Shown here: piece after piece, positions 26,972 through 29,814 of the stretch
Layout: each line of letters begins with the position of its first letter
How positions within the stretch are numbered: position 1 is the first letter of the stretch
Assembly (NCBI GenBank): GCA_016933425.1
Contig: JAFGAY010000225.1
Span: 1-35,573 of the forward strand
DNA length: 35,573 nt
Direction of reading: 5' to 3'
DNA from: Pirellulales bacterium
GTDB lineage: Bacteria > Planctomycetota > Planctomycetia > Pirellulales > Thermoguttaceae
The notes under the pieces: model-generated
What the model saw: only the letters and a program-made list of their open reading frames with translations
What the model was told of the DNA's origin: nothing
Databases searched by the model: none
Position numbers and translations under genes: made by a program

Positions 26972-27811
26972 ATGAATGGAATCCCCGTCTTGTTTGCCCG
27001 GGGCGATTCGATTGCCCGAGCATGGGAAAACTCGCTTCTGGAACTCTATCGCCACGGCGGCGACGTCGCGACCCAGTACGACAAACCGGGCGACCCGCCC
27101 AGCAAGGACGCCACGATGACCGTGGTGGTCGAACAGCCGCTGCTGGAGCCGATGATCCACCGCGACTTGCCGGGCGGGTTCGAGTCGCTTCAGGAATACG
27201 TCATGGAGGTCTGCGAGGGCATCAAGGACCACTGCATCCGAGATCCTGAAAATCCGGACGACACCCGCTGGGAATACACCTATCACCAGCGGTTGTTCGA
27301 CTACGACGTCCCCACCCGCGGCGCCGTCGATCAAATCGAGCAGGTCTGCCGCCAACTAGCCCAAACACCCCACACCAGACGCGCCCAGGCCGTCACTTGG
27401 AAAGTCTGGGAAGACCGCGACTGCTACGATCCGGCGTGTTTGCAAAGCGTCTGGTGTCGCGTCACCGAAACGTCGGATCGGGCCGTGTTGAGCATGAACG
27501 TGCGGTTTCGCAGCAACGACGCCTACAAGGCAGCCTTCATGAACATGTTCGCCCTGGTCCAGTTGCAACGAAAAATCGCCGATCGGGTGGCCGAGCTGTC
27601 GGGCCGCACGGTTGAACTGGGGCGCTACTGCCACATGGCCGACAGCTACCACGTCTATGGGTCGAACCTGGCCGAGTTCGAGGGACGATTCCTGGGCGCC
27701 ATCGAACGCCGGACCTTCGAACAACGAACCATCCGCTACGAAGACGTCCGCGACATCATGGAAGAGGCCCGACCCGCCATCCTCGAAAAAGCCCAACAAA
27801 TGGGCCGGTAA
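26972..27811 (+). CDS. Thymidylate synthase family protein
   Basis: A 279-residue ThyA-fold protein, which would methylate dUMP to dTMP with methylene-tetrahydrofolate. The central block aligns without gaps to the E. coli enzyme: HTRRAQAVTW (R136/R137, like the SRR phosphate loop), then the catalytic cysteine in DPACLQ at C156, 19 residues after the second Arg as in E. coli. RSND (R180, D183) is followed by N191 at the correct 8-residue spacing, and HVYGSN supplies H227 and Y229. The N-terminal third is divergent and no ThyA-type N-terminal folate loop is recognised. AAGGA (26960-26964) supports the start. A dCMP or other pyrimidine hydroxymethylase relative is possible, so I leave the symbol blank. 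Confidence 0.8.
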   Translation: MNGIPVLFARGDSIARAWENSLLELYRHGGDVATQYDKPGDPPSKDATMTVVVEQPLLEPMIHRDLPGGFESLQEYVMEVCEGIKDHCIRDPENPDDTRWEYTYHQRLFDYDVPTRGAVDQIEQVCRQLAQTPHTRRAQAVTWKVWEDRDCYDPACLQSVWCRVTETSDRAVLSMNVRFRSNDAYKAAFMNMFALVQLQRKIADRVAELSGRTVELGRYCHMADSYHVYGSNLAEFEGRFLGAIERRTFEQRTIRYEDVRDIMEEARPAILEKAQQMGR

Positions 27812-27840
27812 ACGGAAAGATAAACCATTTGCGGACGGGA

Positions 27841-27908
27841 CTAGCCCGTAGGTCAGGCTGTGCCTGACAAAAAGCTAGCCCGTAGGTCAGGCTGTGCCTG
27901 ACAAAAAG
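27841..27908. repeat. Two tandem 34-bp REP units
   Basis: Exact 34-bp direct duplication (27841-27874 and 27875-27908). Each unit contains the hairpin GTCAGGC-TGT-GCCTGAC (first at 27852-27868) preceded by CCCGTAG and followed by AAAAAG. It is the same core as the other REPs flanking the nearby RAYT gene. Confidence 0.8.
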
Positions 27909-28040
27909 CACCAATAGCCTTCTGAAAAGACACCTTTCCCTTTCAAAGAGGGCTTGGGTTAAATTGCGAGGATCGTTGGGTGTGTAATTGCCTGATTTTT
28001 GATAAGCTCGGGTATTGGGACAGACACAAAATCATCCTGT

Positions 28041-28057
28041 GTTAGGCATAGCCTAAC
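28041..28057. repeat. REP hairpin upstream of the RAYT gene
   Basis: GTTAGGC-ATA-GCCTAAC, 22 nt before the transposase start and just before its ribosome site. It is in inverted orientation relative to the unit downstream of the gene. A RAYT binding here could repress its own gene (inference). Confidence 0.7.
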
Positions 28058-28078
28058 CCACGAAGGAGACCAGGGGCG

Positions 28079-28630
28079 ATGTCGGACTATCGGCGAGCAT
28101 ATGTGCCTGGTGGAACGTTCTTTTTTACCGTGGTTACAGATGGTCGTAGGAAGCTGTTTCGGGATTCGCGTGCGAGAGAGATTCTTGGCCATGTAATGCG
28201 TCAGGCTTTGTTTCGTTTCCCCACGGAGGTTATAGCAATCGTGCTCCTACCCGATCATCTCCATGCCATTTGGACCTTGCCACAGGGCGATGCCGATTTT
28301 TCCACACGCTGGGCCTGGATCAAGAAGGAATTTACCAAGAACTGGATTGCCGGCGGCGGCCAGGATGGAATAACCTCATTATCCCGACAACGAGAGCGTC
28401 GGCACGGAGTTTGGCAACGACGATTCTGGGAGCACACGATTCTTAATGAGGATGATCTTGAAATCCATTTCGACTACATACACTACAACCCGGTGAAACA
28501 CGGTTGGGTTGCCTCACCCCGGGATTGGCCATGGTCAAGTTTTCATCGGTGGGTTCGCGAGGGGCATTATTCGTCCAATTGGTCGGCCGCCCGAGGTGCG
28601 GTTATTCTCCCCGGCAATGCCGGCGAGTAA
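28079..28630 (+). CDS. REP-associated tyrosine transposase (RAYT, Y1_Tnp family)
   Basis: A 183-residue single-domain HUH-type nuclease of the RAYT group, which cuts and moves REP palindromes. It has the metal-binding HUH motif in PDHLHAIW (H60, H62), the catalytic tyrosine in DYIHYNPVKHG (Y133) and the C-terminal DWPWSSFHRW signature. The length is typical. GAAGGAGA (28062-28069) supports the start. It is embedded in REPs of the matching sequence: two tandem copies before it, one hairpin immediately upstream, an inverted pair immediately downstream and one more at 29431. This is the classic arrangement of a REPtron. All key residues are intact, so it may be active. Confidence 0.93.
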   Translation: MSDYRRAYVPGGTFFFTVVTDGRRKLFRDSRAREILGHVMRQALFRFPTEVIAIVLLPDHLHAIWTLPQGDADFSTRWAWIKKEFTKNWIAGGGQDGITSLSRQRERRHGVWQRRFWEHTILNEDDLEIHFDYIHYNPVKHGWVASPRDWPWSSFHRWVREGHYSSNWSAARGAVILPGNAGE

Positions 28631-28702
28631 TTATGTAGGTTAGGCTGTGCCTAACAAAATACCATTGCGTTTTTCTGTGTCAGGCACAGCCTGACCTACA
28701 TA
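28631..28702. repeat. Inverted REP pair (BIME) after the RAYT gene
   Basis: GTTAGGC-TGT-GCCTAAC (28639-28655) and GTCAGGC-ACA-GCCTGAC (28679-28695) face each other with outer arms TTATGTAGGT (28631-28640) and ACCTACATAA in inverted form. The whole 72-bp unit is a near-perfect palindrome starting directly after the transposase stop. Confidence 0.8.
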
Positions 28703-28724
28703 ATGGATACTACATAATGGATAC
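28697..28724. repeat. 14-bp tandem duplication
   Basis: TACATAATGGATAC occurs twice, at 28697-28710 and 28711-28724, at the outer edge of the REP pair, six bases before the HNH start. It may be a scar of REP movement. Confidence 0.6.
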
Positions 28725-28729
28725 CGACT

Positions 28730-29419
28730 ATGACCAAGAGTAAACGATCTCCAATTCCAGAAGAGGATATCGCGAAACTGTTGTTGTGGTGTGCAAGACA
28801 CTGTTGTTTCTGTGGGAAGCGTTGTACTACGAACATTGAAATCCATCATATAGATGGCAACGCGAGGAACCATGATCTCGACAATCTCATTCCTGTTTGT
28901 TTTGACTGCCACGGCAAGTTGGCCCACTACAATCCACAGCATCCCCGAGGCAGATAATTCAAAGGTCTTGAGATTAAAAAACGACGAGACCAAATATATG
29001 AGTTGCACACTTTCCCATACATGCGTGGGGTCTCCATCCATATTAGCAAGTACATATTTGGCACCAAAAAAGAAAGGCCATTGGGCGATACTTCATGCAC
29101 AGTCACCTCTCTCAGTACAGATATTCCGGTGCGTTTGCGTTTGAAGCTCACGCCATTTCATGAAGAACGAGATGTCACACCAGAATTTATTGATGGCCTT
29201 TATTCCGGCAGGGATCTTTGGAATCTGAATCCCACGCAACAAGTTCGGGGTCATTTCCGATTGCCTATAGACTTAAATGGTGTACCTTTTATTTACAGAG
29301 TTGAGATTCGCTGGAGCATCGTGGATATCCACGAACGGGAGCATAAAATGCTGCCGTTCAGCTATGTGTGGAATGATCCTTCAAGCGACTGGTGGTTCGA
29401 TCCGAAAGTATTGACATGA
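28730..29419 (+). pseudogene. HNH-nuclease-type gene interrupted by one in-frame stop
   Basis: Frame 28730-28957 encodes a 75-residue zinc/HNH-like module: CxxC (CFCGKRC region), IEIHHIDGNARNHDLDNL (HH and the following N/D-N), and VCFDCHGKL. After the TAA at 28955-28957 the same frame stays open for 153 codons to 29419 and reads naturally from the stop (FKGLEIKKRRDQIYELHTFPYM), as in intact relatives where HNH domains end with a helix of this kind. So a single nonsense codon splits a gene of about 229 residues. The downstream half is unrecognised. Base composition is visibly more AT-rich than the neighbouring genes, and it lies between REPs, which suggests acquisition by transfer. Readthrough, or a genuine stand-alone HNH peptide, is possible. 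Confidence 0.65.
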
Positions 29420-29430
29420 GACACGTTGCT

Positions 29431-29447
29431 GTCAGGCACAGCCTGAC
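29431..29447. repeat. REP hairpin downstream of the HNH pseudogene
   Basis: GTCAGGC-ACA-GCCTGAC, same core as the other REPs and in the orientation of 28679-28695. It is followed by CTACGGTTTTTC, so it might also act as a weak terminator. Confidence 0.7.
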
Positions 29448-29562
29448 CTACGGTTTTTCGCCATAACATCCGGGAACGGGACTAGACGAACGCGGAAAAC
29501 CTGGTAGGATAAACGTTTCGGAGGCAGGGTATTCTGGTTGCGGCTTGTGGGTAAACACGAAA

Positions 29563-29784
29563 ATGGCAAAAAAGGAAGAAGCTCTCGAAGTCGAGGGGCT
29601 CGTCACCGAGGCTCTGGCCAACACGCGGTTTCGCGTCCAGTTGGACGGCGGCCACACGGTGATTGCCCACGTGGCCGGCAAAATGCGCAAACACTTCATC
29701 CGCATTGTGCCGGGTGATCGGGTCCATGTCGAACTCTCGCCCTACGATCTGACCAAGGGTCGGATTACCTACCGGGAACGGTAG
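29563..29784 (+). CDS. infA: Translation initiation factor IF-1
   Basis: A 73-residue OB-fold protein, the expected length of bacterial IF-1, which occupies the ribosomal A site during initiation. The family pattern is clear: [56 protein letters not shown] (core read as [10 protein letters not shown] and [13 protein letters not shown]). I use the ATG at 29563, since the ORF starting 18 bases earlier adds residues not found in IF-1. No strong Shine-Dalgarno is seen. It is isolated from ribosomal protein operons, and a paralogue or main copy elsewhere cannot be excluded. Confidence 0.95.
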
Positions 29785-29814
29785 CCGCCGAACCCTTCTT
29801 GTGGGGCATACTGC

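Follow-up and report, generated by a model that had tools for sequence, protein, structure and literature searches.

The closest described systems are REPtrons, in which a REP-associated tyrosine transposase (RAYT, or TnpA-REP) is found together with its REPs. The GTAG tag defines the GTAG-type REPs (PMC3733652), and inverted REP doublets are called REPINs in PMC3116915 and 'HH dimers' in PMC3733652. REPtrons in Planctomycetes have already been published in the latter, and for A. variabilis and H. neapolitanus it describes REP dimers within longer palindromes, where the palindrome was never found without the REP. The E. coli enzyme TnpA-REP uses a tyrosine to cleave REP DNA in single-stranded form, at C|T close to the hairpin, and is also able to rejoin strands (PMC8266576). 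The same source separates group 2, with bulged REPs and a C-terminal tail, from group 3, with perfect short REPs and no such tail.

Here we describe a locus of this kind in the window, which is the whole 35,573-nt stretch of DNA analysed, part of a 3.73-Mb draft genome in 406 contigs that is 89% complete. With a probability of roughly 80% we read the locus as a REPtron, i.e. an HUH (Y1) transposase of the RAYT/TnpA-REP type with its cognate REPs. That this RAYT would bind, cut and move REPs is what we infer by analogy with E. coli and other TnpA-REPs.

The locus and its hairpins

The RAYT gene and the six REPs, numbered along the window, are as follows.

27848..27868, + strand: REP 1, hairpin with GTAG tag and 7-bp stem; lies in the first copy (27841-27874) of an exact 34-bp tandem
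27882..27902, + strand: REP 2, second tandem copy (27875-27908)
28041..28061, - strand: REP 3, GTGG-tagged, within the RAYT leader; stem GTTAGGC/GCCTAAC
28079..28630, + strand: RAYT gene, intact, 183 aa
28635..28655, + strand: REP 4, first member of the inverted pair (tags outward) after the RAYT stop; stem GTTAGGC/GCCTAAC
28679..28699, - strand: REP 5, second of the inverted pair after the RAYT stop
29431..29451, - strand: REP 6, distal REP

The window contains six exact copies of the core GTYAGGC-N3-GCCTRAC, at 27852, 27886, 28041, 28639, 28679 and 29431, and all of them lie around the HUH transposase gene at the places where the original prediction had put them. When up to three mismatches are allowed there are 16 matches in the window, against a mean of 4.3 and a largest value of 10 in shuffles. 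The most diagnostic feature, which the original prediction did not mention, is the tag. It stands directly 5' of the stem in all six hairpins (GTAG in five, GTGG at 28041), and read from the tag their orientations along the window are +, +, -, +, -, -. As single-stranded DNA each folds into a hairpin whose stem has 7 bp and whose loop has 3 nt, at -5.8 to -7.0 kcal/mol (z -3.4 to -4.2), and all six have the form of a GTAG REP, with GTAG or GTGG directly 5' of a stem of 6-9 bp and a short loop. An Rfam search of 27700-29800 gave no match.

Most of the predicted arrangement is also seen in these coordinates: two hairpins are in exact tandem, an inverted pair follows the stop codon, and a further hairpin is distal. 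One hairpin had been said to overlap the leader of the gene. REP 3 does lie in the RAYT leader, but the gene itself is not overlapped, the end of the REP (tag counted) being 17 nt before the ATG. The gene is flanked by inverted REPs, with REPs 1 and 2 (+) upstream and REPs 5 and 6 (-) downstream, and REPs 1 and 6 make up the outermost perfect inverted repeat, which is 24 nt long (27846-27869 and 29430-29453). An exact 14-bp tandem, CTACATAATGGATA, is also present at 28696-28723, overlapping the end of REP 5.

The RAYT protein and its relatives in the genome

The protein has an HUH motif (H60-L-H62) and a single catalytic tyrosine (Y133) in a Y1 fold, as well as W112-Q113, E118-H119, N137, the motifs DHLH and YIHYNP, and a tail ending in Gly-Glu. 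It scores 184.1 bits against NF047646 (NCBIfam, REP-associated tyrosine transposase), where the cut-off is 80, and 22.6 bits against Pfam PF01797 (Y1_Tnp), just under the cut-off of 23. The best phmmer match in the PDB is the E. coli TnpA-REP 4ER8 (E 4e-40). An AlphaFold2 model (pLDDT 84.7, with a low tail at 51-56) again gives 4ER8 as the best PDB match in a fold search (E 1.4e-16, TM 0.76/0.83), followed by ISDra2 and IS200-type transposases. In an alignment of 95 RAYTs, H62, Y133 and N137 are kept in every protein and H60 in 94; over the whole set of H60-L-H62, W112-Q113, E118-H119, Y133 and N137, the residues are kept in 93 to 95. At residue 122, which is aligned to R104 of 4ER8 (a GTAG contact in E. 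coli), the window RAYT has Leu, while 75 of the 95 RAYTs have R. Its best relatives in named genomes come mainly from Planctomycetota, and on this ground the draft genome probably belongs to that phylum.

A second full RAYT in this genome, RAYT2, is 63% identical to the one in the window and has around it six REPs whose hairpin is longer, GTCAGGCAC-NNN-GTGCCTGAC (class B); a pattern for this class has 27 matches in the genome. Near-identical gene copies of the window RAYT, as in an IS200/IS605 insertion sequence, were not found in this genome, where RAYT2 is the next copy. A third, weaker Y1 relative at a contig end (L018, on C392) is flanked by 23-nt inverted repeats, TCTTAAGAGGTCGGGAGTCTTTA, and by no REPs; it resembles the 'TIRtrons' of PMC3733652, in which inverted repeats, not REPs, flank the gene.

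REPs across the genome

The exact core recurs over many contigs of the draft genome, with 189 copies against 0 for a reversed-pattern control. This is the high copy number and dispersal looked for in a GTAG REP, and on this point the original prediction, which could have failed here, is not refuted. With the GTAG tag there are 183 of these REPs, which we call class A (GTAGGTCAGGCTGTGCCTGAC). Among 66 REPs sampled outside the window by a search that required GTNG, 64 have GTAG and 2 have GTGG, and the loop is TGT in 64; on the tag strand, the next base past the hairpin is A in most of the copies listed. Within 300 bp of each other, the 99 listed tagged sites form 28 outward-tagged doublets, no inward ones and 6 tandem ones, with 34 of the 99 sites being singletons. 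Inverted doublets therefore outnumber the other doublet arrangements, as they do in REPINs.

The hairpins around the gene might instead be taken for ordinary terminators, or for palindromes that arose by chance. Some of them do follow stop codons (28635 and 29431), and a run of five T is found 6 nt after the last hairpin on the + strand. Such a view is contradicted by the number of exact cores against the control, by the outward pairing (28 vs 0), by a tag that is nearly always GTAG where only GTNG was required, and by the A that mostly follows the hairpin, and we find this explanation scarcely credible. The reading of an intact RAYT in a REPtron is borne out by the NF047646 score (184 vs 80 bits), the 4ER8 match, the genomic cores and the inverted pairing.

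In two of the six window copies (REPs 3 and 4) a C-to-T change in the stem is accompanied by a G-to-A change in its partner. These compensatory changes, by which the stems stay paired, had been correctly noted, but their interpretation as a sign of selection for structure is unsupported within the genome. Stem pair 3 is C-G in 66 of the 66 REPs outside the window, and the few stem changes there (5 cells) are all one-sided; selection for pairing, as drawn from the C/T changes inside this genome, was accordingly rejected. Because all the sampled outside copies are C-G at this pair, the two T-A copies in the window are local variants. Better evidence that pairing matters comes from other RAYT loci, whose stems are quite different in sequence and still pair, with the reservation that the hairpin scan of those loci required pairing and so cannot by itself prove selection for it. 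The near-uniform REP population fits recent copying.

On contig C38 (L064), hairpins of a third tagged class (GTAGGCCGGGT...ACCCGGC) are nested between two class-A REPs. The same class also flanks a RAYT in another genome (G028).

In the mechanism that we propose, the RAYT most likely binds GTAG-tagged hairpins formed in single-stranded DNA, for example behind the replication fork. Y133 would then cut one strand near the hairpin, with formation of a 5'-phosphotyrosine bond, and the cut strand would be rejoined elsewhere. In this way inverted REP pairs (REPINs) may occasionally undergo excision or be copied into new sites. REPs with outward-facing tags enclose the RAYT gene, and it is probable that the 1.6-kb unit as a whole inserted at the junction of a thyA-like gene and infA in this lineage.

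A larger repeat around many REPINs

Many REPINs in this genome have flanks in common, which measure about 40 bp on one side and 30 bp on the opposite one and have inverted YGGGYGTCCARGAAT at their ends. This flank, which is MITE-like, was found at 13 of 40 sampled REP sites (score at least 18, where shuffled controls reached at most 11), and in 4 of the 5 copies with both ends, 4 or 5 of the 5 flanking bases are identical, as in a target-site duplication. Examples with REPINs inside are L076, L086, L087 and L211-L236. Relative to the flank, the 9-nt REP-REP spacer lies one way round in 4 copies and the other way in 11, as counted by eye, and a 19-nt spacer likewise varies (2 and 1). The motif ATGATTTTCC, considered as a possible REP-free target, has 22 copies in the genome, part of which were compared with REP places, and the broader search with the shared flanks took its place.

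As about a third of the sampled sites sit in the MITE-like repeat, some class-A copies may have been spread by a transposase other than the RAYT. In the fullest version of this idea the RAYT is real, but many class-A REPs are passengers in a MITE with YGGGYGTCCARGAAT ends, and the RAYT is a bystander or a local editor of REPs. This would account for the shared flanks and for the duplication-like bases around them, and it agrees with the fact that among the 86 matches listed no MITE-like flank was seen without a REP. It leaves aside the 27 of 40 sampled sites that do not have the flank, the REPs of the window itself, which likewise lack it (by eye), and the outward-tagged pairs with many other spacers that occur outside it. 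We think it unlikely, though well worth keeping in mind, that many class-A REPs owe their spread to such an element, and we prefer the REPtron reading, with the RAYT acting on its own REPs.

RAYTs and REP classes in other genomes

A RAYT match at E 1e-20 was found in 16 of 60 genomes, the present one included. In total 99 RAYT loci were scanned for hairpins: the window, 18 from the search of the 60 genomes (RAYT2 included) and 80 from named genomes. Two or more tagged hairpins of one and the same class occur within 900 bp at 64 of these loci, and none of 297 shuffled versions shows this. The outermost hairpins, considered at 60 loci, have their tags outward in 37 cases, both on + in 8, both on - in 6, inward in 4, and are one-sided in 5. 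Protein distance and REP distance are weakly correlated (Mantel r 0.21), with none of 5000 permutations as high.

The REP classes are distributed unevenly. Of class-A REPs there are 183 here, 66 in G029, 18 in G059 and 1-3 in four other genomes, and the remaining 53 of the 60 have none; the two genomes of the same genus have one (G001) and zero (G002). The REP class that flanks the RAYTs of G001 and G002 has 13 and 28 copies there and a single one in this genome, and it is also present in G017 (20), G051 (14), G025 (7), G015 (5), G007 (3) and G029 (1). G051 has no RAYT match at E 1e-20 despite its 14 copies, and G017 has only a partial match, at a contig end. In G029 and G059, no scanned RAYT-family locus is closely flanked by class-A REPs, the scan having covered 10 of the 15 matches; the nearest association, one class-A core about 1.3 kb from the C114 copy of G029 (L192), was not counted. 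Since the class-A REPs of these two genomes adjoin no scanned RAYT-family locus, such REPs can exist without a visible partner RAYT, which counts against a strict one-to-one partnership.

The low copy number of the RAYT, with two full copies of different classes, would suit a protein that has been domesticated, is vertically inherited and no longer moves, with a role in the cell on REP DNA or RNA and with the REPs as old terminators or mRNA-end hairpins. Open 75-nt frames are scarcer around REP sites than in random stretches of the window (mean 2.8 vs 4.1), a weak signal that is expected of intergenic sites and would agree with such a role. The class-A REPs are, however, near-uniform in the sample of 66 and almost absent from both same-genus genomes, which points to recent spread, and the RAYT loci differ between same-genus genomes, with the junction described below being empty in G001. 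Domestication of this sort is in our view improbable, and the reading as a REPtron that acts on its REPs is kept.

The junction, a probable insertion and a putative passenger gene

The unit bounded by the outermost REPs, and the open frames between REP 5 and REP 6, are the following.

27846..29453, no strand: REP-bounded unit, 1608 bp; absent from the same-genus G001 at the thyA-like/infA junction
28730..28957, + strand: HNH-type frame, 75 aa, GC-poor, with TAA at 28955-28957; PF01844 at E 3.5e-4, just under the cut-off
28958..29419, + strand: continuation in the same frame past the TAA, 153 aa; no relative found

In G001, infA comes 138 bp after the thyA-like gene. The gap here is 1751 bp, or 143 bp when 27846-29453 is taken out; the flanks have diverged too far from those of G001 for an exact placement of the junction. 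The insertion argument is carried by this one relative, because infA was not found next to the thyA-like gene in G002 (in the stretch examined) or in eight other relatives with a thyA-like gene. The comparison suggests that the unit was inserted into the thyA-like/infA junction in this lineage, carrying the GC-poor HNH-type gene as a passenger, and loss of the unit in G001 instead is possible.

The HNH-type region between REP 5 and REP 6 has a GC content of about 44-45%, while the thyA-like gene has about 60% and the sequence beyond infA 63-71%. The 153-aa part past the TAA matched 1 of 197 genomes, which was its own, and no plasmid. The TAA could be a mutation or an artefact of assembly, or it could be natural. 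A direct repeat stands astride the unit (27826-27844 and 29467-29485), with 15 of 19 positions identical and an exact 10-mer, ACGGGACTAG; random pairs of stretches reach this level in 2-3 of 400 trials. Duplication of the target is not an expected outcome of Y1 transposition, which therefore would not readily account for the 19-bp direct repeat.

That the 1.6-kb unit, with the RAYT and the foreign, GC-poor HNH/orphan gene, moved as one composite transposon with REPs as its ends may be entertained, but we regard it as doubtful. RAYTs are usually regarded as domesticated and stationary. If the whole unit did move with its cargo, this would bear on whether RAYTs still transpose themselves.

Comparison with known systems

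The element in the window is a real, intact REPtron of the published kind and will not surprise a specialist. What it adds, as an extension of the published pattern, is a documented RAYT/REP pair, and a second pair coexisting with it, in a draft genome of probable planctomycete origin, along with a fast turnover of REP classes between genomes of the same genus. Of interest for follow-up are the junction found empty in G001, the probably foreign gene carried as a passenger, and the MITE-like surroundings of REPs.

Compared with the E. coli TnpA-REP (4ER8, a 'group 2' REPtron), the protein here is alike in being HUH-Y1, in its fold, in the positions of W-Q, E-H and Y...N and in having a C-terminal extension, and in both systems GTAG-tagged hairpins lie on both sides of the gene. 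Unlike in E. coli, the REPs here form short, bulge-free perfect palindromes with a stem of 7 bp and a loop of 3 nt, and Leu stands at the position of R104. In the 'group 3' REPtron Sm of Stenotrophomonas maltophilia, as given in PMC8266576, the REP is likewise a perfect palindrome with a 3-nt interruption and GTAG directly before it; that text describes the C-terminal extension of about 20 residues for group 2 and not for group 3, and the protein here has the DHLH and YIHYNP motifs and a tail with Gly-Glu at its end. The locus thus mixes traits of the two groups, with a group 2-like C-terminal tail and group 3-like short perfect REPs.

In Pseudomonas fluorescens (PMC3116915) inverted REP doublets are also the abundant unit and the RAYT lies beside its own REPIN class, whereas in the present genome a spacer as short as 9 nt is frequent and a larger repeat holds about a third of the sampled sites. 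PMC3733652 describes REPtrons and GTAG REPs in Rhodopirellula baltica, among other species. They resemble the present case in the phylum, which is that of the likely host, in having multiple REP families and transposase genes in a single genome, in their HH dimers and, for a few species, in REP dimers within longer palindromes.
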